The position numbers and the translations under genes were made by a program. A model generated the notes under the pieces. It was given only the letters and a program-made list of their open reading frames with translations. It did not search any database and was not told where the DNA came from. A stretch of DNA of 33,259 nt from contig JAUNNJ010000020.1 in assembly GCA_030531495.1 (NCBI GenBank), positions 1 through 33,259 of the forward strand, written 5' to 3'. Source of the DNA: Bacteroidales bacterium. Lineage in GTDB: Bacteria; Bacteroidota; Bacteroidia; Bacteroidales; Muribaculaceae. Positions 281 through 17,093 of the stretch are shown here, in pieces. How positions within the stretch are numbered: position 1 is the first letter of the stretch; every line of letters starts with the position of its first letter.

Positions 281-846
281 AATAAGGAAGTTTTATTTGT
301 TAAACAATGTGCGCTTCCGCGCTTTTTAATTTTTACGAACGAGTCCAACATCGTGCAACCTCTCGAAGTGAGCTCGGCAAAGTTCACAGCGGTGTGTGGT
401 CGCAGACCGCGCCGCGACCAGTGAACCTTTGCCAACATTGTGAACGCCCGTGCAAGGATTTGCAGGAAATAATACTCTCAGCATGAGGAAGATTTTTCAG
501 GTAAACTCGTCTTGTCCTTGCTCAGAGAGCGACGGTGTAACTTTGTGCAGGAAAAATATGAGCGCAGGGAGCGAAAAAATTGTAACAGATGGTACTTATC
601 AATAATGTGTGCAGAGTGCATCATATCACTTTAGACCATAGGCAAGCAAAAACAAGCAGAACACCCTTTAGGTCCAGGAGCACCCAGTGCAACATCCCCG
701 ACAATGAAACAGAATACAATCAGTTCCCAACAGCCCACAACGAAAACTGCCAGCTGCAACAAGTGCAACCAGCAGTAAATAAGTTCGATGAAGTCTTGTT
801 CAATGAACCTGTAAACTAATTTTGCCTGCAAGGCAAGTCTCGTATA
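281..846 (-). other. Leader-like region between the recombinase and the 68-residue gene
   Basis: No gene here is convincing. On the minus strand a 52-codon frame (484 down to 326, containing a CELC pair) and a 53-codon frame (438 down to 277, ending in an ATGA overlap with the next gene) overlap in different phases across the same GC-rich segment. At most one can be real. A hydrophobic 66-codon frame at 831-631 would start with TTG, 15 nt after the recombinase stop, and has no visible ribosome site. The strongest structure is the hairpin at 376-433. A structured untranslated leader, with or without a leader peptide, is my preferred reading. Confidence 0.4.
376..433 (-). ncRNA. Strong two-tier hairpin, possible structured leader RNA
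   Basis: The outer arms 376-387 and 421-433 pair over about 12 bp with one bulged base (GGCAAAGTTCAC against GTGAACCTTTGCC). Inside them, TGGTCGC (397-403) pairs with GCGACCA (414-420) around a GC-rich loop. The segment is clearly richer in G+C than its surroundings. No T-tract follows either side, so it does not look like a terminator. It precedes the 68-residue gene by about 100 nt. A regulatory leader or small RNA is inferred; no known family is recognised. Confidence 0.35.
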
Positions 847-1650
847 TTACCAAGTGATTACTTTGTCAACGATTGCTTGTTGCTCTGAGGATGTGCGGCG
901 CAGGTATATTCTTGTGGTCTCAATGCTTTCGTGTCCCATCAGATCGGCAAGCAGCGACAGGTCGTTAAACTTTTCGAGAAAGTTCTTAGCATATCGATGG
1001 CGGAATGAGTGGGGATATACTACACTTTCTTTTATACCATATCGCTTAGCAAATGACTTTAGTTGCTGGGCAATGCCTCTTGTGGTTATTCTCTCGCCAT
1101 AGCGGTTCAAGAACAAATAGCCTGTTGTGCGGTTATGACTATGCAACCACATCGAGGCTTCTTCCCGTAGTTTCTTAGGAATAAAAATCCTTCTTATTTT
1201 CCCTCCTTTAGTGTAGAGGTCGATATAGCCGACATTAACATGCTCGACTTTCATTTGCACCAATTCACTGACGCGAGCACCAGTCGCGGCAAGGAACCTA
1301 ACCACGAAATACCATTCCTGGTTATCCTCTTTTTTTAGTTTGTTCTTGAGGAATGTGTAATCGGCATTACTGATTACATTTTCCAGATAAGATCGTTGCT
1401 GTACCTTAACCGATTTAAGGTGTAGTTCAACCTTGCCAACAAACAAGAGATATTTGTTCATTGCCTGAATGCGAAGGTTTACTGTTTTTGCACTATAAGT
1501 TTCTATCAAAAATGTTTTGTACAAAAGCAAGTTGTCCTTATTCAAAGATTTGTACCTGCTTTTGTATTCACGCAAAGCATAAAGATAAGCAGCAATCGTG
1601 TTCTTTGCCATGTTCGTCTGCCGAAGATACTTTTCAAATTTCTTTTCCAT
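847..1650 (-). CDS. Tyrosine recombinase (integrase), probable hsdS invertase
   Basis: This is a site-specific recombinase of the lambda-integrase family, 267 residues from the chosen start. It has an N-terminal SAM-like core-binding domain (about 1-85) and a C-terminal catalytic domain. The full catalytic set is visible: Arg126 (GARVSEL), a Lys at 148 or 151 in the beta hairpin (TKGGK), His214-x-x-Arg217 (PHSFRHR), His240 (LMGHES) and the nucleophile Tyr249 (RIYLRR). An upstream ATG at 1713 would add 21 residues. I prefer the ATG at 1650 because the family normally begins near MEKKFEKYL. The gene starts 66 bp from the 21-bp inverted repeat of the hsdS locus and there is no phage or transposon gene nearby, so inversion of hsdS segments is its likely job (inference). 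Confidence 0.9.
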   Translation of the reverse strand: MEKKFEKYLRQTNMAKNTIAAYLYALREYKSRYKSLNKDNLLLYKTFLIETYSAKTVNLRIQAMNKYLLFVGKVELHLKSVKVQQRSYLENVISNADYTFLKNKLKKEDNQEWYFVVRFLAATGARVSELVQMKVEHVNVGYIDLYTKGGKIRRIFIPKKLREEASMWLHSHNRTTGYLFLNRYGERITTRGIAQQLKSFAKRYGIKESVVYPHSFRHRYAKNFLEKFNDLSLLADLMGHESIETTRIYLRRTSSEQQAIVDKVITW

Positions 1651-1682
1651 CTGAATAATAGTATTAAGTGAAACAATAAATT

Positions 1683-1695
1683 GGGGTAAAACCCC
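1683..1695. promoter_or_regulatory. Small GC hairpin upstream of the recombinase
   Basis: GGGGT-AAA-ACCCC forms a perfect 5-bp stem in an AT-rich stretch, between the recombinase start codon (1650) and the edge of the invertible DNA (1716). It could be an operator, a leader hairpin of the recombinase or an accessory binding site. The sequence alone does not decide. No clear TAnnTTTG box is visible for the recombinase here. Confidence 0.3.
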
Positions 1696-1715
1696 TATAA
1701 AAATACGCTTCATTT

Positions 1716-1736
1716 AATTCCTATTATGAGAAGATG
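1716..1736 (+). repeat. Inverted repeat IR1, left copy (21 bp, perfect)
   Basis: The 21 bases are exactly the reverse complement of 4931-4951 and contain the core TATTATGAG (1722-1730). Identity stops abruptly on the outer side, where the flank is recombinase leader here and hsdS codons in the partner copy. In both copies the repeat encodes the end of the N-terminal conserved region (SYYEKM), in the same reading frame. This is the expected anatomy of a site-specific inversion crossover. Confidence 0.85.
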
Positions 1737-2366
1737 GCAGACGGCACAGTCAAATGTATCGATGACGAAATTCCATTTGACATTCCCGCATCTTGGGAAT
1801 GGTGCAGGATAAAACACATATTCTCTATGCAGGCTGGTAAGAATATTTCTGCGAGTAAAATTTCTCAAGAGAAAACAGAATTATATAAATTCCCCTGTTA
1901 TGGAGGCAATGGGCTTCGAGGTTATGTTGCCGACTTCAATACAAATGGAGATTTTCTAATTGTGGGCCGACAAGGAGCACTATGTGGAAATGTCAAAATT
2001 GCTTCAGGTTTGTTTTATGCTACTGAGCACGCAGTTCTAACAGATAATTATTCTGTAACAAATCTATTTTGGGGCTATTATTTCCTTACCGCTCTAAATC
2101 TCAATCAATATGCAACTGCAACCGCTCAACCAGGACTTGCTGTATCAAATATTGTAGAGGTACTTATACCTTTACCTCCTATACAAGAACAGAAGAGAAT
2201 TGCAGAATGTCTTATGCAGGCAGAACAATCTTTAACAAAATACGAAATAGCACAGGACAAACTAGAAAAGTTAAATTTAGAAATTCACTTAAAACTAAAA
2301 AAGTCAATCCTTCAGGAAGCAATTCAGGGTAAACTTGTTCCTCAAATTGCATCAGAAGGTGATGCG

Positions 2367-2486
2367 TCCGTTCTTCTTCAACAGATTGAGCAAGAAAAGC
2401 AAAAGCTTTTCAAGGAAGGTAGGTTGAAGAAGAAGGATTTGTTATCGTCAACCATCTTCCGAGGTGACGATAACAAGTATTATGAG
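2367..2486 (+). repeat. Central hsdS inverted repeat, copy in the silent cassette
   Basis: It matches the reverse complement of 4166-4285 at about 113 of 120 positions by eye, including a perfect 39-bp block (2423-2461 against 4191-4229). It encodes the conserved linker between TRD1 and TRD2, so inversion or homologous recombination here would swap only the second recognition domain while keeping the frame. Confidence 0.85.
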
Positions 2487-2492
2487 CAGATA
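2474..2492 (+). repeat. Inverted repeat IR2, left copy (19 bp, perfect)
   Basis: It is the exact reverse complement of 3593-3611, with the core TATTATGAG at 2478-2486, and encodes KYYEQI. The partner lies at the head of the isolated second-half cassette, so inversion between the two would exchange TRD2b and TRD2c within the silent DNA. The core is the same as in IR1, which suggests one recombinase uses all these sites. Confidence 0.8.
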
Positions 2493-3027
2493 GGTGAAGA
2501 TTGCACTCTTATTGATGAAGAAATTCCATTTGAAATTCCTTCAACATGGGTATGGAGCCGAATTGATACCGTTTTCCAGATAAACCCTAAAAACTATTGT
2601 GATGATAGTATTAATGCTGCATTTATACCAATGGAAAAAATAAATGCTGGATATGGCTCCTCATTTGAATATGAAAGTAGAATTTGGGGAACCATTAAAA
2701 AGAGCTTTACTCATTTTGCAGATGGTGATGTTGCCTTTGCTAAGATTACTCCTTGTTTCCAAAATAGGAAATCGATGATACTTAAAGACCTTCCGAATGG
2801 CATAGGGGCAGGAACTACTGAGCTAAAAGTTCTTCGACCCTACGGGGAAACAATAAACCTTTGGTATATACTGTACTTCCTTGAAAGTTCATATTTCATT
2901 GATGAAGCCACATTCAAAGGTACAGCAAACCAACAAAGAATCATAAGTGGCTATCTGGAACACAAACTAATTCCAATACCACCTTTTGAAGAACAAAAAA
3001 GAATCGCGGAGAGAATCACGCATCTCC

Positions 3028-3063
3028 TCTCAAAGATTGGCATTTAAAAGCCAATCTTTGAGA
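3028..3063. repeat. 14-bp palindrome joining the ends of the two silent cassettes
   Basis: Arms 3028-3041 and 3050-3063 are perfect inverted repeats around the 8-nt AT loop ATTTAAAA. The plus-strand cassette and the minus-strand cassette end here, their stop codons overlapping by a few bases, and both encode SKIG before the stop (SKIGI and SKIGF). It could stop transcription from either side and could also serve as a third crossover point at the 3' ends of the TRD2 modules. Confidence 0.7.
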
Positions 3064-3611
3064 AAATGTTCTCTATTTGAATAATGATACGTTTCTGCTC
3101 GCTTAACGGAGGTAAAGGAATTAGTGTTTTTATAATTTTCTCTTTTGAAATATTTGGTTGTGCACCACCTTCACTCTTTTCTACGAAAGCTTGCTTATTT
3201 GCCTGTAAAAACCAAAATAAGTATCTATTATAATCATAGAATAGTGTGCAAGCGCAGCATGCTTGATTAGTAGTCAAATCACATCCCGCAATTGCAACTT
3301 TACCTATAGTAGCCCCATACATTGCTATTAAAACATCTCCTATTTTACATAACCGTAAGGAGCATTCACTTAACGCTTTTTCCGTTATTTTTATTTTCGT
3401 ATCATTGATTATCCCATTATTTAACTCACCTGTAGTCAGCCAACGAATTGTACCATTATTATAATATTCCAAATTCCCTTTAGATGGTGTTGAACCAGAA
3501 CCCCAGGAACCAATCTGCCCAAGTCTCACCCATTGCCAACTACTGGGTATCTCGAATGGTATTTCTTCGTCAATACAATAGTTGGAGCCATCTATCTGCT
3601 CATAATACTTG
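3044..3611 (-). pseudogene. hsdS: Silent second-half hsdS cassette (TRD2c)
   Basis: This is a single target recognition domain with no start codon, ribosome site or N-terminal conserved region. From the YYEQ junction at 3593-3611 the frame reads CIDEEIPFEIPSSWQWVRLG, then the TRD, ending in IPLPPLSEQKRI and FSKIGF. A GTG at 3529 opens a frame of 161 codons but lies inside the conserved WQWVRLG motif and is not a real start. The cassette begins 6 nt after the hsdS stop codon (3617-3619), in the same reading frame. It is therefore a spare C-terminal half placed directly behind the expressed gene. It can reach hsdS through the direct repeat of the junction or after inversion with the left cassette. 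Confidence 0.8.
3593..3611 (-). repeat. Inverted repeat IR2, right copy (19 bp, perfect)
   Basis: It is the perfect inverted partner of 2474-2492, and a direct-orientation, diverged relative of the hsdS junction at 4166-4174 (TACTACGAG instead of TATTATGAG). It marks the first codons (KYYEQI) of the spare TRD2c. Confidence 0.8.
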
Positions 3612-3616
3612 ATATG

Positions 3617-5140
3617 TTATTCAAGTTTTTTAATGAGTTCTGATAGTTCTTTGACAATTCGATTCTGCTCGCGTAAAGGAGGAATCGGTAATAGCAACTT
3701 ATCCAATGCTCCTGATGATAGTCCTTGTATGCCTATTCCTTTACCTCCTATATATCCTATATTTTTCAAATAATAAAAAACATGATAATAGAATTCTATA
3801 TTGATGTGGACGTAAGGTCTTAATTTATGAATATGATTTTGTATGCATATCTCGTAGTCGTAGTTCCAAATTGCAGCTCTACCGACATCACCCCCTTCAC
3901 ATACTAAAAGGTCTCCTTTTTTTACAGAATACCGATCTATTTCGCCTTGACTAAAATACATCTCTCTCAAGTTCTCTAATTGAAACCGATTCCAATACAA
4001 ATTTGAAGTAGTTATATACGGTTTTAACTCGCCACTTTTATTAGATGCATTTAGAGCCTTTCCTGTATTATGTTGAAATAAAGTACCTAATCTTATCCAT
4101 CTCCAGCTTTCAGGTGTATTATATGGTATTATTTCATCAATACACTCAACTTCATTTCCTTTCTTCTCGTAGTACTTGTTATCGTCACCACGGAAGATGG
4201 TTGACGATAACAAATCCTTCTTCTTCAACTTACCTTCCTTGAAAAGTCTTTGCTTTTCTTGTTCAATCTGTTGAAGAAGAACGGAAGCATTTCCTTCAGA
4301 AGCAATTTGTGGTACTAACTTACCTTGGATTGCTTCTTGAAGAATTGATTTCTTTAGATTTTGATAAATTTCAGCATTTACTTTTTCTAACTTTGTTTGA
4401 AAAGAGGAATAATTTTCTACTGAAGGATATATCTGAAAATATTTTTTAACAATTCTAATTTGTTCTTTAATTGGAGGAATTGCAACCAGAATCGAATTCA
4501 TCTTTTCTTGATTCATCTTAGGTTGTGCAGTACCTGTTACATAGTCTACGAGAGAAATAGCATTAATGTACAAGCATATATATGCCATGTTATCGCTATT
4601 TAGGCAATCTATTACATGCGCATGGTTGTTTACCCAATACTTACCCCTTGCAATAAATGCAATAGGAGAATTTCTGTTAATAAGATTCGCCCCATCTTCA
4701 CCTATCAATAACAAGTCCTTGTCAAATATAAATTTATCAACTTTATCTATAACTCCGGAAGCACCATAATAATCATATTTCTTGGGTAGGTGTTGACGCT
4801 CTGCAACAGAAATTGGTATTCGTTCTGAATCTCGATTAAATACTATATTCCCAAATCTTTCCCATTCCCAGCCTGTAGGGATATCAAAAGGTATCTCTTC
4901 ATCAATGCACTTTACCTCTCCAGTAGTAAGCATCTTCTCATAATAGGAATTGTCGTCACCACGATAGATGATTGACTCATTCTTGTCCTTCTTGATTTTC
5001 TTTTCCTTTACGAGACGTGCTTTTTCTGCTCTAATTTGTTCAAGCAGAACTGATGCAGGTTCATCGTTTGGGTCTTGGGGGACGAGTTTGCCTTGTATTG
5101 CCCACTGGAGTATGCTGTTTTTAAGTTGTTTTCCTGTCAT
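3617..5140 (-). CDS. hsdS: Type I restriction-modification specificity subunit HsdS (currently expressed form)
   Basis: HsdS binds the split target sequence and docks HsdM and HsdR. The protein has 507 residues, typical length, and is an internal tandem: conserved helix 1 (residues 6-50, KNSILQWAIQGKLVPQ), YYEK junction (66-69), TRD1a (about 77-233, ending AIPPIKEQIRI), conserved helix 2 (262-310, KKSILQEAIQGKLVPQ), second YYEK junction (323-326), and TRD2a (about 333-500, ending IPIPPLREQNRI). It starts 14 nt after the hsdM stop and so belongs to the hsdRMS transcript. The 21-bp IR1 lies at codons 64-70 and the central repeat at codons 285-325, so both halves can be replaced by the silent cassettes downstream. 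In another cell of the population this gene may carry different recognition domains. Confidence 0.93.
   Translation of the reverse strand: MTGKQLKNSILQWAIQGKLVPQDPNDEPASVLLEQIRAEKARLVKEKKIKKDKNESIIYRGDDNSYYEKMLTTGEVKCIDEEIPFDIPTGWEWERFGNIVFNRDSERIPISVAERQHLPKKYDYYGASGVIDKVDKFIFDKDLLLIGEDGANLINRNSPIAFIARGKYWVNNHAHVIDCLNSDNMAYICLYINAISLVDYVTGTAQPKMNQEKMNSILVAIPPIKEQIRIVKKYFQIYPSVENYSSFQTKLEKVNAEIYQNLKKSILQEAIQGKLVPQIASEGNASVLLQQIEQEKQRLFKEGKLKKKDLLSSTIFRGDDNKYYEKKGNEVECIDEIIPYNTPESWRWIRLGTLFQHNTGKALNASNKSGELKPYITTSNLYWNRFQLENLREMYFSQGEIDRYSVKKGDLLVCEGGDVGRAAIWNYDYEICIQNHIHKLRPYVHINIEFYYHVFYYLKNIGYIGGKGIGIQGLSSGALDKLLLPIPPLREQNRIVKELSELIKKLE
4166..4285 (-). repeat. Central hsdS inverted repeat, copy in the active gene
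   Basis: It is the reverse-complement partner of 2367-2486, with a perfect 39-bp core at 4191-4229. The mismatches are scattered and mostly at third codon positions, including two within the junction (TACTACGAG at 4166-4174). The exchange therefore may use general homologous recombination as much as the site-specific enzyme. Confidence 0.8.
4931..4951 (-). repeat. Inverted repeat IR1, right copy (21 bp, perfect)
   Basis: It is the exact inverted partner of 1716-1736. It lies within codons 64-70 of hsdS, just before TRD1a, with the core TATTATGAG on the minus strand at 4937-4945. Recombination between the pair would invert about 3.2 kb and exchange everything after codon 70. Confidence 0.85.
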
Positions 5141-5154
5141 ACTATAGACAATTT

Positions 5155-6669
5155 TTACTTCTCAAAGGTTATACCTAACAATTCTTGTATTTCAGAAAGA
5201 GTTTTGTCAATCTCTTGGTCGAGAGCTGCGCGCTTCTTGTAGTAGTCGGCAAGAAGTTCGGCAGGTGGCAAAATTTCTTCTTCATCTTTGGGGAATTTAC
5301 ACTGGTCGAAGTTGCAGTCCATATCAAGCAATTCTTGTGCAGTAAAACACTTTGCCTTAATGTCGCTATCATCCACAATTATTTCCTTGCGGTCGTTCCA
5401 CCATTCGGTAATGGGAGCAGTGTGTTCGAGACGCATAGGTTTAGTCTTGCTGAAGTGCTTATAGCCCTCAGGCATATCAAGGCGGTAGAACCATGTTTCA
5501 CGAGTTCGAAAGCCCTCGGGAGCATTGTCAGCAGCTTCGTTGTCGAAGAACAGAATATTGGTAGCAATAGAGGTATAAGGTGAGAAGATACTGCCTGGTA
5601 AACGTATAATGGTGTGTAGATTAAACTTGCGCAAAAGGTTTTCCTTGATTGCGCGTTTTGCACCATCAGTACCAAACAAGAAACCATCAGGAATAATCAC
5701 ACCTGCACGACCGCCAATTTTGAGGCGGTACATGATAAGAACGAGGAATAAGTCAGCGGTTTCGCTTGACTGGAACTGTGAGGGGAAATTACCTTTTACA
5801 GAAGCATCAGTACTGCCACCGTAGGGAGGATTCATGCCGATAACATCGACCTTGTCAGACTCCTTGAAATCCGACATGTTTGTGCCCAAAGAATCACAGT
5901 GACGAATGTTTGGCGCTTCAATATCGTGTACAAGAAGGTTAGTTATCGAGAGCAGATAAGGCAGAGGTTTCCACTCTTGACCAACAACAGCCTTTTGCAG
6001 TTTTTCTTGATCGGCAGCTGATTTTACCGAAGGAGCCATAAAGTTAAGTGCCGATGTAAGGAAGCCACCTGTACCAGAAGTGAAATCACCAAAGGTCTCT
6101 CCTAATTGTGGATGGAGCTGCTGAACGATAAAGTCAGTGAGCGCACGGGGTGTGTAGAACTCACCGGCGTTACCCGCTGACTGGAGGTCTTTGAGCAAAC
6201 CCTCGTAAATATCCCCGAAAGTATGACGATCCTCTGCGTCATCAAACTCTATCTCATTTACGATGTTGATGATTTGGCGAAGGAGTGTACCATTTTTCAT
6301 GTACTGGTTTATATCCTGGAAAACCTCATGTACAATGCTCATGTGTCGTGGGGTTTCGGCAGTTACAGGAAGTTCCTTAAGAGCAGGGAATAATTCTTCA
6401 TTTATGAACTTAAGCAATTCATCGCCAGTCATTGCAGAACCATCTTTCTCGTCAACAGCCCAGTTGCGCCAACGGAGGTTTTCAGGAATAATCGACTTAT
6501 ATTCCTTTTTGTCACGATAGGCATTGTATTCCCATGTTTCTTCTTGAGTGTCATACACTTTGAGGAAGAACATCCAGACCATTTGCTCGATGCGCTGAGC
6601 GTCACCATTGATACCCGCATCAGAACGCATGATGTTCTGAATACGCTTGATTATATTATTTACTGCCAT
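5155..6669 (-). CDS. hsdM: Type I DNA methyltransferase subunit HsdM
   Basis: HsdM is the N6-adenine methyltransferase of the type I complex. It methylates host sites using S-adenosylmethionine and forms the HsdM2-HsdS core. It has 504 residues, the usual size. The N-terminal HsdM_N helical domain spans about 1-140. GEFYTPR (169-175) precedes SAM-binding motif I, DFTSGTGGF (195-203), which carries F-T-S where many relatives have P-x-C. The catalytic motif IV is NPPYGG (280-285). The start codon overlaps the hsdR stop by one base (TAATG), and hsdS follows after 14 nt, a tight operon in the order R-M-S. Unlike hsdS it is invariant with respect to the inversions. Confidence 0.95.
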   Translation of the reverse strand: MAVNNIIKRIQNIMRSDAGINGDAQRIEQMVWMFFLKVYDTQEETWEYNAYRDKKEYKSIIPENLRWRNWAVDEKDGSAMTGDELLKFINEELFPALKELPVTAETPRHMSIVHEVFQDINQYMKNGTLLRQIINIVNEIEFDDAEDRHTFGDIYEGLLKDLQSAGNAGEFYTPRALTDFIVQQLHPQLGETFGDFTSGTGGFLTSALNFMAPSVKSAADQEKLQKAVVGQEWKPLPYLLSITNLLVHDIEAPNIRHCDSLGTNMSDFKESDKVDVIGMNPPYGGSTDASVKGNFPSQFQSSETADLFLVLIMYRLKIGGRAGVIIPDGFLFGTDGAKRAIKENLLRKFNLHTIIRLPGSIFSPYTSIATNILFFDNEAADNAPEGFRTRETWFYRLDMPEGYKHFSKTKPMRLEHTAPITEWWNDRKEIIVDDSDIKAKCFTAQELLDMDCNFDQCKFPKDEEEILPPAELLADYYKKRAALDQEIDKTLSEIQELLGITFEK

Positions 6670-8990
6670 TATGCTACTTTATAAATTTCTGTTTCAAGTT
6701 CTTTAATTGCCTGTTCAAATCCTGCTGGACCACCAAAAAGTTTAATAATCTTTGTTGGTTTGCCGATGAGATTGAATGGTGGAATCTCTAGGATGCCAGC
6801 TTTCTCAAAGTCAAGGATGCCATTTTCGGCATACTTGTCGAGCAATGCTTCAAGTACCTCGCGAGCCTTGCCTTCATACTTGCCGAAATAGTTGCGCTTC
6901 TTTACATTATTAGCTCGCTCACGGCGAGTAAGTGGCTTTTGGTCATAAGCCACATGGCAAATAATGTCGAATATATCAGCATCCTTCAGGGCAGGATTAG
7001 CATCCCGAACAGCATCGATAAGAATTGCATATTCTTTGAGTTCATCAAGGATTGCCTGTTTTTTATCGGCCTCAGACCACTTTTGAATGAAGTTGTCAAG
7101 AGATTCAAAATGGCGTTGTATATGTTTGCGGGCAAATGATGTAACCGACTCGGTTTTCATCGTTTTGCCATCTTCTCCCAAGACAGATACAATTTCAGAT
7201 TGGATTTTGATATTTACGCCATCTACAATATATTTGTCATGCTTTGGTTCTCCCGCCGTACTTGTATTGCTTCCGTCTTCTCCGTTATTGATTTTATATT
7301 TTCGGGGAGAAGGGATTTTTGGCACAGGATCGCCATCAAATTCCGGGTCACGGAATTTTGCTGTTGCATTTCTGAAATCAAGAATTTCAAGATGCCATTT
7401 GCCTTTGTCTGGGCGAAGGCGCGTGCCACGGCCAACAATTTGCTTAAACTCAGTCATGCTGCCTATTTCCTTATCAATAACGATAAGTCCGCAGGTTTTA
7501 CAGTCAACACCAGTTGACAACAACTCACTTGTCGTGACAACTGTGGGATATGGTTCATCGACAGAGATGAAATTGTCAAGTTGCTTCTTGCCTTCTTTGT
7601 CCTCGCCAACAATACGAGTTACATAGTATGGTGATTTTTTAACAAGATCAGCATTCATATTGATTAGCAGCTGACGCATTTCTGCAGCTTCTTCAATGTC
7701 TGAGCAGAAAATGATTGTTTTCGTCATTCGACCAATCTCGTGCAGCATTTGGGTGATGCGATGTGCTACAATTTTTCTGCGAAGTTTAAATGCTAATTCT
7801 CTACCGATATTTTGCCTTTGGTATAGTTTCTGTTCAATTTCTTGCCCAAGAAGGTCTTTCTCCCCCTCATCGGGAGTCCATCCCTCTAAGTCAACATTTA
7901 TGAACGAGTTTGTCACACGATATGGAGCAAGAAATCCGTCTTGAATACCTTGCAAAAGAGAATATGTGTAAACTGGCTTGCCGAAATACTCCAAGTTATT
8001 AGCACCTTCATCCGATTTTGGTGTTGCCGTCATACCAATCTGAGTTGCAGAATGGAAATACTCAAGCACTTTACGCCACGCAGAATCATCCTTAGCACTT
8101 CCTCGATGACACTCATCAATGACGATAAGGTCAAAATAGTCTGGAGAAACTTCCAGGAATGGATCAGGCTGTCCTTCTCTTCCCACCAACTGATGGTATA
8201 AAGCCATATAAATTTCAAAAGCTGTATCAATCTTTGGTGTGCCCTCTGCCGTTGATGTAACCTTTGTCATGAACTTCTTGAACGGTTTGAAATCCTGGGC
8301 GATGGTTTGGTCGATAAGGATATTTCTGTCTGCAAGATAAAGGATTTTCTTTTTTGCTTTAGATTTGTGAAGACGATGAATTATTTGGAAAGCAGTATAG
8401 GTTTTACCTGTACCTGTCGCCATAACCACAAGAACACGTTGCTGACCTTTCGCTATCGCTTCGACAGTACGGTCAATAGCAATGCGCTGATAGTAGCGAG
8501 GTTCATGAGTGTAAGCATCGTAATAATATGGCGTTTCTACAATCTCCTGTTGCTCGGCTGTGAGATTCTTACTATCTATGAGACGATTATACAATTCATC
8601 TTCGGTTGGAAATTCTTCTAAACTAAGCTCTGTCTCTTTACCTGTGATGAAATCGTGTTCAAGAAAACCATCACCATTACTACTATAAGCAAATTTCAAG
8701 TCGAGAATACGAGCATAATCAATAGCCTGCTGCATACCTGCACCCAGGGCATGAACATTGTCCTTTGCCTCAACTACAGCAATTGGTTTACCTTTATGGA
8801 ACAAAAGGTAATCGGCTTTTTTACCCTTCTCTTGCGAATGTTCTTTTCCATACACAAGAATGCGACCTGCGGTGAAGTAATATTCTTCACGCATGTTTGT
8901 AGGCACTTGCCATCCTTTTGCGACAAGAGCAGGACTGATGAACATGGTTCTTATTTCCTGTTCTTTCAAAGATTTCTTGTCAACGTTCAT
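6669..8990 (-). CDS. hsdR: Type I restriction endonuclease motor subunit HsdR
   Basis: HsdR is the ATP-driven translocase and nuclease that cuts unmodified DNA at a distance from the recognition site. It has 773 residues. The N-terminal PD-(D/E)xK nuclease is visible as Asp60 (KKADYLLF) and Glu74-x-Lys76 (AVVEAK). The superfamily 2 helicase motor follows, with Walker A ATGTGKT (191-197), DECH (292-295) and TATP (321-324). Motif VI (QIVGRGTRLRP) lies further on and a C-terminal helical domain binds the core enzyme. It is the first gene of the hsdRMS operon. The leader upstream is long and AT-rich, with a TATATTTG box on the minus strand at 9322-9329. The ATG at 8988-8990 is the only sensible start. 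All motifs are intact. Confidence 0.95.
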   Translation of the reverse strand: MNVDKKSLKEQEIRTMFISPALVAKGWQVPTNMREEYYFTAGRILVYGKEHSQEKGKKADYLLFHKGKPIAVVEAKDNVHALGAGMQQAIDYARILDLKFAYSSNGDGFLEHDFITGKETELSLEEFPTEDELYNRLIDSKNLTAEQQEIVETPYYYDAYTHEPRYYQRIAIDRTVEAIAKGQQRVLVVMATGTGKTYTAFQIIHRLHKSKAKKKILYLADRNILIDQTIAQDFKPFKKFMTKVTSTAEGTPKIDTAFEIYMALYHQLVGREGQPDPFLEVSPDYFDLIVIDECHRGSAKDDSAWRKVLEYFHSATQIGMTATPKSDEGANNLEYFGKPVYTYSLLQGIQDGFLAPYRVTNSFINVDLEGWTPDEGEKDLLGQEIEQKLYQRQNIGRELAFKLRRKIVAHRITQMLHEIGRMTKTIIFCSDIEEAAEMRQLLINMNADLVKKSPYYVTRIVGEDKEGKKQLDNFISVDEPYPTVVTTSELLSTGVDCKTCGLIVIDKEIGSMTEFKQIVGRGTRLRPDKGKWHLEILDFRNATAKFRDPEFDGDPVPKIPSPRKYKINNGEDGSNTSTAGEPKHDKYIVDGVNIKIQSEIVSVLGEDGKTMKTESVTSFARKHIQRHFESLDNFIQKWSEADKKQAILDELKEYAILIDAVRDANPALKDADIFDIICHVAYDQKPLTRRERANNVKKRNYFGKYEGKAREVLEALLDKYAENGILDFEKAGILEIPPFNLIGKPTKIIKLFGGPAGFEQAIKELETEIYKVA

Positions 8991-10306: not shown

Positions 10307-11197
10307 ATGATTACATTAATTTTAGGCAATGGTTTTGATATTGACCTTGGGTGGAAAACATCATTTAAGGATTTCTTTAACTCATTATATAAACCAGAAC
10401 ATGAAGGTATTTATATCTCTGGGCTAGAAGAATTCATTGACTCATCAAATAGAGACAAGAATTATGAACACTGGTATAACCTGGAACAACAATTTCTGGA
10501 TTTTGCTCGCAAAGGCACTGCAGATGCGAAAGACGATAATGTTGAAGCAATTAAACATTTGACCTGGCTTCAACAAACGGGAAACAATTCCACCTTCTTT
10601 AACCAGATTATATCAAAGTTAACGGATTATTTGGCCGCAGAATCAAATAAGGAAATAAACGTGAATTCATGTGCGATTAATGTTCTGCGCTCTGTTATAC
10701 TATACGGGGATTCAAAGATTTATACTTTTAATTATACAGATATAAAGAAAACGTCAGAAAAGGCAGGCATAGAGTGTAACATTCCTGTACATTACGTACA
10801 TGGTTCTCTTAAGAATAATGACATAATATTAGGCGTTACAGATGAGGTAGACATGGAGCTAGGATACAGTTATTTACAGAAATCTCGGAATCCCAATTTT
10901 CACAAATCCAACATAGAGATTGACTTATGCTCATCTCAAGAAGTGGTCTTTTTCGGTTTTTCGTTTGGACGTAATGACCATCAATATTTGCGTTCGTTCT
11001 TTGAATATGTACGAAAGGCAAATATAAAAATCGCAATATTTACTTTTAATGCATCATCAGCCCAAAATATATGGTCAGAAATAAAGGTAATAGCAAATAA
11101 CGATCTTGGAGGTATTAAGAATAAGATTGAAGTAAAACACACATGTAATGGTGTCGATTCTATACAAGATTTTTTAAAGAGAATAAAGCAATCATAA
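10307..11197 (+). CDS. AbiH-family abortive infection protein
   Basis: This 296-residue protein resembles the bacteriophage abortive infection AbiH family, which in lactococci causes infected cells to fail before phage release. The family marks are a glycine-rich N-terminal nucleotide-binding-like loop, ILGNGFDIDLG (5-15), then YTFNYTD (139-145), HYVHGSL (162-168) with IILG shortly after, and FFGFSFGRNDHQ (215-226). The order G-x-G-F-D, N-Y-T-D, H-G and G-x-S-x-x-x-D recalls the layout of SIR2-like NAD-binding folds, so NAD or nucleotide hydrolysis is a possible activity (inference). It has no signal peptide or membrane segment. It lies between a membrane-protein gene and tRNA-Arg at the edge of the restriction island. 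The ATG is 20-25 nt after its predicted promoter start. Confidence 0.8.
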   Translation: MITLILGNGFDIDLGWKTSFKDFFNSLYKPEHEGIYISGLEEFIDSSNRDKNYEHWYNLEQQFLDFARKGTADAKDDNVEAIKHLTWLQQTGNNSTFFNQIISKLTDYLAAESNKEINVNSCAINVLRSVILYGDSKIYTFNYTDIKKTSEKAGIECNIPVHYVHGSLKNNDIILGVTDEVDMELGYSYLQKSRNPNFHKSNIEIDLCSSQEVVFFGFSFGRNDHQYLRSFFEYVRKANIKIAIFTFNASSAQNIWSEIKVIANNDLGGIKNKIEVKHTCNGVDSIQDFLKRIKQS

Positions 11198-16709: not shown

Positions 16710-17084
16710 TCATAAATTGTTCCGGTTTAGGGTATTCTTGATTTTTGATTTGTAACTGTTCATCATTTTCCTTATTTGAAAAATCTCGTCAACAGCAGGA
16801 GCAGCCAAATCGTCAGTAATATAACCTAATTCTACAGCAATGATTATTTCACATTCCAATTCACTTGCTGACCCTTCTGCTATATGTATGAAATGGGCGA
16901 AATCTTTAAGACTGTCGCGTCCACACCCTTCTGCAATGTTAATTGGAATAGAGGTTGACGCTCTCCTCATTTGAGATTGAAGACCGAATTTTTCTTCATT
17001 AGGAAAATTTCTGGATATCTCATATATCATTTTTGTGAGGAGAATCCCTCTTTTCCAAATATCTAATATCTTAAAATCTCTCAT
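16710..17084 (-). CDS. Four-helix-bundle protein (S23 / 23S rRNA intervening-sequence protein family)
   Basis: This 124-residue protein is entirely helical in appearance. It matches the four-helix-bundle family first seen inside 23S rRNA intervening sequences and related to the Avd accessory protein of diversity-generating retroelements. The family pattern is visible: DFKILDIWKRGILLTKMIYEIS, then FPNEEKFGLQSQMRRASTSIPINIAEG, then a helix rich in acidic residues (IAEGSASELECEIIIA) and a final basic helix. A TTG one codon upstream is possible, but the ATG at 17084 is preferred. The molecular role is unknown, nucleic-acid binding is the usual guess. It sits alone between punA and thiL inside inverted repeats and is more AT-rich than its neighbours, which suggests insertion. 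Confidence 0.85.
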   Translation of the reverse strand: MRDFKILDIWKRGILLTKMIYEISRNFPNEEKFGLQSQMRRASTSIPINIAEGCGRDSLKDFAHFIHIAEGSASELECEIIIAVELGYITDDLAAPAVDEIFQIRKMMNSYKSKIKNTLNRNNL

Positions 17085-17093
17085 CAAGCCAGA

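Follow-up and report, generated by a model that had tools for sequence, protein, structure and literature searches.

Background

Invertase-linked hsdS invertons reportedly occur across phyla in the 2020 'epigenetic invertons' survey of Huang et al. In the published outline of SpnD39III from Streptococcus pneumoniae, hsdR, hsdM and a full hsdS are accompanied by a recombinase and two truncated hsdS copies, one carrying two variable domains and the other a single domain, and five target recognition domains (TRDs) give six alleles (PMC4190663); accounts of Spn556II describe a 15-bp repeat whose inversion is PsrA-dependent (PMC4948785, PMC7096588). The Bacteroides fragilis hsdS shufflon BB (BF1839-1842) is described as forming eight combinations with four repeat sets (PMC3090145), and according to the summary of a REBASE survey 3.9% of type I systems have inverting hsdS loci, B. 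fragilis being one of the commensals concerned (PMC7394358). The stretch analyzed here (hereafter the window) comprises all 33,259 nucleotides of positions 1 to 33,259 of contig JAUNNJ010000020.1 (assembly GCA_030531495.1), from a Bacteroidales bacterium of the Muribaculaceae. It carries what is very probably a type I specificity locus capable of inversion, with a PsrA-like tyrosine recombinase of its own and three to six specificities. A preliminary description had proposed an invertible type I specificity locus at this place, and the proposal is supported by an in-frame flip in silico, relatives in mirror-image states, contig ends in congeneric genomes and invariant recombinase residues.

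Inverted repeats and gene layout

The window locus contains hsdR, hsdM and a full-length hsdS, all on the reverse strand. The hsdS in the expressed position (TRD1a and TRD2a; 3617..5140; Methylase_S, PF01420, 1.7e-31, two stretches) lies directly downstream of hsdM (5155..6669; N6_Mtase 8.3e-57, HsdM_N 2.3e-13), which is followed in coordinate order by an hsdR of the EcoAI/FtnUII family (6669..8990; NF046051, 1072.5 bits against a cut-off of 550). A truncated hsdS without the 5' end and N-terminal segment, taken as silent, runs opposed to the full gene on the forward strand (1716..3047; PF01420, 1e-24, two stretches) and carries different domains, TRD1b (1737..2231) and TRD2b (2494..3044), the limits of both being approximate.

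These two genes are joined by a 21-bp perfect inverted repeat, S1. The silent copy (AATTCCTATTATGAGAAGATG; 1716..1736, forward strand) is the exact reverse complement of the active copy (4931..4951, reverse strand), and both translate in frame as N-S-Y-Y-E-K-M. Identity ends at the outer edge of S1, where GACGAC precedes the active copy and TCATTT the silent one, and also at the inner edge (C versus G). Thus the perfect repeat, its occurrence in one and the same reading frame of two opposed hsdS sequences, one of them without an N-terminus, and the abrupt end of homology at its outer edge are all as the preliminary description had them. The 15-bp core of S1, TTCCTATTATGAGAA, occurs at only two places in the window when up to two mismatches are allowed, against a mean of 0.07 in shuffled sequences, which rules out a chance repeat. 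A first-order Markov simulation, in which 7 of 100 window-length sequences gave an exact inverted arm of at least 20 bp, counted hairpin palindromes as well and was not used as a significance test. The segment of the expressed hsdS that encodes the constant HsdS N-terminus (4952..5140, reverse strand) lies outside the invertible segment.

Two further repeats lie between the S1 copies. The S2 pair is an exact 20-bp inverted match between the silent hsdS (CAAGTATTATGAGCAGATAG; 2474..2493, forward strand) and a third cassette (3592..3611, reverse strand), and the neighbouring sequence has diverged. This half-length cassette occupies 3046-3611 on the reverse strand; its domain, TRD2c (3047..3591, reverse strand; PF01420, 1.6e-25), lacks an N-terminal half and has a stop codon just upstream of its S2; its C-terminal end meets that of TRD2b head to head (3028..3063; 18-bp arms, 94%). 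In addition, a central inverted repeat of 267 bp with 83% identity (2263-2529 / 4123-4389) is common to both hsdS genes and includes 39 exact base pairs (2423..2461, forward strand, in the silent arm; 4191..4229, reverse strand, in the active arm), the longest exact inverted arm that the Markov script reported in the window. The central site of the active gene (CAAGTACTACGAGAAGAAAG; 4159..4178, reverse strand) is diverged from S2 and has drifted to CAAGTACTACGAG in place of CAAGTATTATGAG. The earlier view of two TRD pairs flanked by repeats is therefore right as to both pairs and as to S1, and incomplete in that TRD2c, S2 and the central repeat were overlooked.

Recognition domains and reachable alleles

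The five TRDs at the locus are only 27-39% identical in pairwise comparison and are therefore distinct. The active HsdS now has 507 amino acids. An S1 flip in silico gives an in-frame protein of 506 amino acids with TRD1b-TRD2b, an S2 flip followed by an S1 flip gives one of 504 amino acids with TRD2c, and a flip at the central repeat gives one of 511 amino acids. The number of reachable active alleles is two with S1 alone, three with S1 and the exact S2 pair, four with S1 and the central repeat, and six with all of them. A scan for promoters and terminators found no excess over shuffled sequences (12 versus 13.3; 1 versus 2.0).

In the mechanism that we propose, the adjacent PsrA-like recombinase would recombine the two S1 sites and flip 3.2 kb, putting TRD1b-TRD2b in place of TRD1a-TRD2a behind the constant HsdS N-terminus, in frame. 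The S2 pair would exchange TRD2b for the spare TRD2c, and the central repeat may let the expressed and the silent gene trade TRD2. Three to six specificities would then be open to the active enzyme, with methylation and restriction target changing together. We infer that flipping depends on the recombinase, takes place in this strain, and would alter the recognized motifs and with them the methylome, and that the copies without an N-terminus are silent.

Domain exchange was also considered across loci related by their recombinase (defined below), with 59 S1 and 48 S2 domains and a match set at no less than 60% identity over at least 110 amino acids; same-locus matches were excluded from the match counts and kept in the pair totals. 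There were 67 S1-S1 matches among 1711 possible pairs and 190 S2-S2 matches among 1128, while 20 S1-S2 matches (2832 possible pairs) show that the TRD1 and TRD2 pools are not strictly separated by site type. Ten cross-position pairs have a DNA identity of 61-71% downstream of the core and 47-59% upstream, and therefore any exchange between positions would be old. As a separate observation, TRD2b (2494-3044) has a close TRD1-position relative in locus L039 (72% over 166 amino acids) and TRD2c (3047-3591) has one in L066 (72% over 124 amino acids), so that domains move between positions in the course of evolution.

The tyrosine recombinase

The recombinase gene (847..1713, reverse strand) belongs to the Phage_integrase family (PF00589, 1.6e-26). 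Its open reading frame is listed from 1713; homologous matches mostly begin at residues 17-26, and with a methionine at residue 22 translation probably starts near 1650. From that start the previously reported distance of about 66 bp to the repeat holds. None of the 81 aligned recombinases departs from R147, K169, K172, H235, R238, H261 and Y270; among them R147, H235, R238, H261 and Y270 are presumably the catalytic positions expected of tyrosine recombinases. The protein is 60.0% identical over 265 amino acids to WP_000651186, a Streptococcus dysgalactiae protein annotated as PsrA. The S. dysgalactiae locus has an 18-bp inverted pair ending in TTATGAGAAGTT, with one arm within an hsdS. An NCBIfam search with the window recombinase returned 11 matches, none of them to a PsrA model and none above its cut-off.

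From a recombinase scan, the best 80 of 134 loci were kept as relatives. The exact core TTCCTATTATGAGAA occurs within 250 bp upstream of the recombinase in 36 of the 80, and TTATGAGAA in 58. Where at least 3.3 kb of upstream sequence was available (50 relatives), an exact inverted pair containing TTATGAGAA, with arms of 15-88 bp, was found in 35. In the 21 Bacteroidota loci with a listed pair (among 51 loci), the arm starts with TTCC in 19 and AATTCC in 2, and its inner length varies; TTCCTATTATGAGAA is therefore the conserved part.

Mirror-image states among relatives

The direction of the orphan half cassette, represented by TRD2c in the window, served as a marker of state: with the active gene (A) or against it (B). 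A first count took in 83 loci, of which 53 offered 3.3 kb or more of upstream sequence. Among these 53, a single orphan cassette was seen in 14 (7 A, 7 B) and none in 38, and two orphan calls were made in L077. L095 and L104, whose recombinases are distant and whose site sequence differs, were then dropped and L077 was added by hand as B, which left 13 scored loci, seven in state A, including the window, and six in state B. Thus relatives occur in mirror-image states. The positions mirror each other as well in 10 of the 13: in the window, L033, L039 and L050 (state A) the cassette is separated from the silent S1 by 1853-1963 bp and from the active S1 by 1338-1415 bp, and the six B loci, without exception, have it at 1859-1966 bp from the active and 1317-1379 bp from the silent copy. 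The misfits are the A loci L031 (4026 bp) and L040 (2422 bp), on the silent side, and L135 (1933 bp), on the active side; two additional short S genes are annotated in L135, and the script picked up one of them. The A and B labels do not cluster on the recombinase tree (5 changes versus a shuffled mean of 4.6), a weak tree with one of nine inner branches well supported, and L038 and L040 are in opposite states with recombinases identical over the matched part.

Direct comparison of loci, which listed only pairs with at least one inverted match and so provides examples, not a frequency, points the same way. L028 (Prevotella corporis) and L035 (Hoylesella timonensis) are collinear over 4.8 kb on the hsdRM side (93.5%) and 965 bp on the recombinase side (91.3%), with 906 bp from S1 inverted (92.9%). 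L037 and L038 are collinear over 4.3 kb (90.5%) and 1259 bp (99.2%), with 832 bp inverted (93.4%). Between L087 and L090 the recombinase is collinear (87.9%) and the 1.17-kb segment next to it is inverted in place (86.2%); on the other side, no collinear match of at least 250 bp and 80% was found.

Contig ends at the inversion site

Of 101 genomes of the window's genus, the window's own among them, nine carry the site, at 13 places; some named relatives overlap with this set, L070 and L072 looking like contigs of genomes G073 and G022. Four of the 13 sites (in G042, G095 and, twice, G100) are contig ends 3-4 bases past the core, and the contig of L029, a Paludibacter metagenome-assembled genome (MAG), ends likewise. 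The G042 contig, 98% identical to the window over 1770 bp from its end, stops at the exact base where the two arms of the window cease to match, and the other ends fall at that base or within one base of it. Such ends at the inner edge of S1 are as expected if both orientations had been sequenced, because, judging from how assemblers behave, so short a repeat alone should not break an assembly with longer k-mers and two alternative continuations would. Among the 80 relatives, a contig end lies within 1 kb of the recombinase on the inverton side in 21 and on the other side in 5 (binomial p 0.0025). In G042, G095 and G100 no attached flipped segment was found by a pattern search (10 genomes) or a Methylase_S search (6 genomes), and their Methylase_S matches sit on other contigs.

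Alternative explanations

Several observations weigh against a fully working inversion system. The active central site is without the canonical core, so that some of the exchanges may not work. An alternative orientation of the exact window locus was not found by the pattern and Methylase_S searches above. The remaining 15 of the 50 relatives with sufficient upstream sequence have no such inverted pair, and therefore the recombinase is not always accompanied by one. Nine of the 13 genus sites lie away from contig ends, and repeated hsdS sequence, instead of mixed orientation, could account for part of the excess of breaks on the inverton side. Within 500 bp upstream of the recombinase, 17 relatives have a contig end; L029 alone breaks at the S1 edge, the end of L089 follows a related motif, that of L068 falls inside the core, and the rest lie elsewhere.

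The alternative that survives best is a plain two-state switch, in which only S1 recombines and past duplication has left TRD2c and the central repeat behind as relics. The diverged active central site (CAAGTACTACGAGAAG) speaks for it, as do the two states reachable by S1 alone; it is nevertheless unlikely, given an S2 pair (2474-2493 / 3592-3611) that is exact over 20 bp amid diverged flanks and an orphan S2 half cassette that recurs in other genomes, mostly at mirror positions. Much less probable is a remnant, a duplicated hsdS that has stopped inverting or whose exchange is confined to general homologous recombination in the central repeat of 267 bp, which at 83% identity would be long enough for it: the short S1 is perfectly preserved amid diverged surroundings, the recombinase residues are intact, congeneric contigs end at the site and relatives show mirror states. 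An assembly artefact joining opposed hsdS copies from different cells, conceivable for one contig of a 144-contig metagenome assembly that is 78% complete, is very improbable in view of the similar layout seen on a complete plasmid of Segatella hominis and of an S1 pair, its arms 88 bp long, in L063, a complete B. xylanisolvens record. Of the readings considered, an inverting type I specificity locus served by its own tyrosine recombinase is the best.

Other partners of the recombinase subfamily and neighbouring features

Recombinases of the same subfamily adjoin type I hsdS in the window, Eco57I-type restriction enzymes in L056, L059 and L071, and a fimbrillin-like surface protein in L074. 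The junctions encoded by the sites are tyrosine-rich (SYYEK, KYYEQ, YNYDYQN), and the sites are short and lie at domain boundaries with opposed spare cassettes. A tentative but plausible view is that this recombinase lineage is a general shuffler of protein domains rather than an accessory of restriction systems. One recombinase may also serve several site types within one locus.

Locus L074 (3-8905; Prevotellaceae bacterium MN60, FZQZ01000011.1) carries its recombinase (73.8% identity) beside a surface-protein shufflon. The fimbrillin-like protein there (868 amino acids, its start cut by the contig end) combines PF13149 with a C-terminal PF12810, and its gene is followed by five spare cassettes in alternating orientation, with PF12810 in four of the four tested. 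A 26-bp perfect inverted repeat (1782-1807 / 8814-8839) codes for YNYDYQN, and inversion in silico gives an in-frame reading of 890 amino acids. The literature searched yielded no paper with both 'fimbrillin' and 'shufflon'. In L056, L059 and L071 the recombinase adjoins restriction-methylase open reading frames (ORFs) with an NPPY motif, spare cassettes and the site TAAGTATTATA(A/G)GAA; the Eco57I domain (PF07669) was tested in L056 only. In L091, a Treponema MAG, two opposed recombinase-like copies flank two opposed half specificity ORFs starting with CRPYEKV (-2044..830 relative to the recombinase).

Elsewhere in the window, an AbiH-family abortive infection protein (10307-11197, forward strand; PF14253, 4.9e-24) is encoded near the restriction locus; PADLOC gave no match. 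A member of the 23S rRNA-intervening-sequence protein family (PF05635, 9.3e-36) is encoded at 16710-17087 on the reverse strand. About 90 bp at 702-790 recur at approximately 80% identity on contig C38 of the same genome and in G041.

Comparison with known systems

The window locus extends the five-domain logic of the pneumococcal methylome switch to an uncultured Bacteroidales lineage, whose cells could probably swap which DNA is marked and cut. The conserved 15-bp site TTCCTATTATGAGAA offers a handle for finding such loci and for reading their state straight from assemblies, and the direction of the half cassette, together with contigs ending at the site, provides simple culture-free computational hints of switching.

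As far as the published outlines go, SpnD39III and Spn556II (cod) of S. pneumoniae, with PsrA/CreX, have the same gene content as the window locus, and they share with it five TRDs and a short 15-bp repeat among the inversion sites. This match agrees with the earlier assignment of the locus to a kind of phase-variable hsdS system known elsewhere. They differ in that the window recombinase sits outermost, behind the silent hsdS, and in that the short site of the window precedes TRD1, so that a flip swaps both TRDs, whereas the pneumococcal 15-bp repeat is described as swapping the 3' region of hsdS. The comparison extends to gene content, gene order and swapped domains; the window recombinase is only 60% identical to the streptococcal protein annotated as PsrA.

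Shufflon BB, as described, likewise rearranges the TRDs of a type I hsdS in the Bacteroidales and has a tyrosine integrase next to it (PMC3090145). Its 38-bp repeat was considered as the same site and rejected: the best match in window positions 700-5200 is 22 of 38, within the 20-25 seen in 20 shuffles. The two-hsdS inverting loci of the REBASE survey, for example in Streptococcus suis, likewise have inverted repeats before TRD1 and between TRD1 and TRD2; the scheme described for them has four alleles and no extra half cassette, unlike the window (PMC7394358). Inverting hsdS loci are a kind already known from other bacteria, and the window locus, well supported as one of them, adds an instance.

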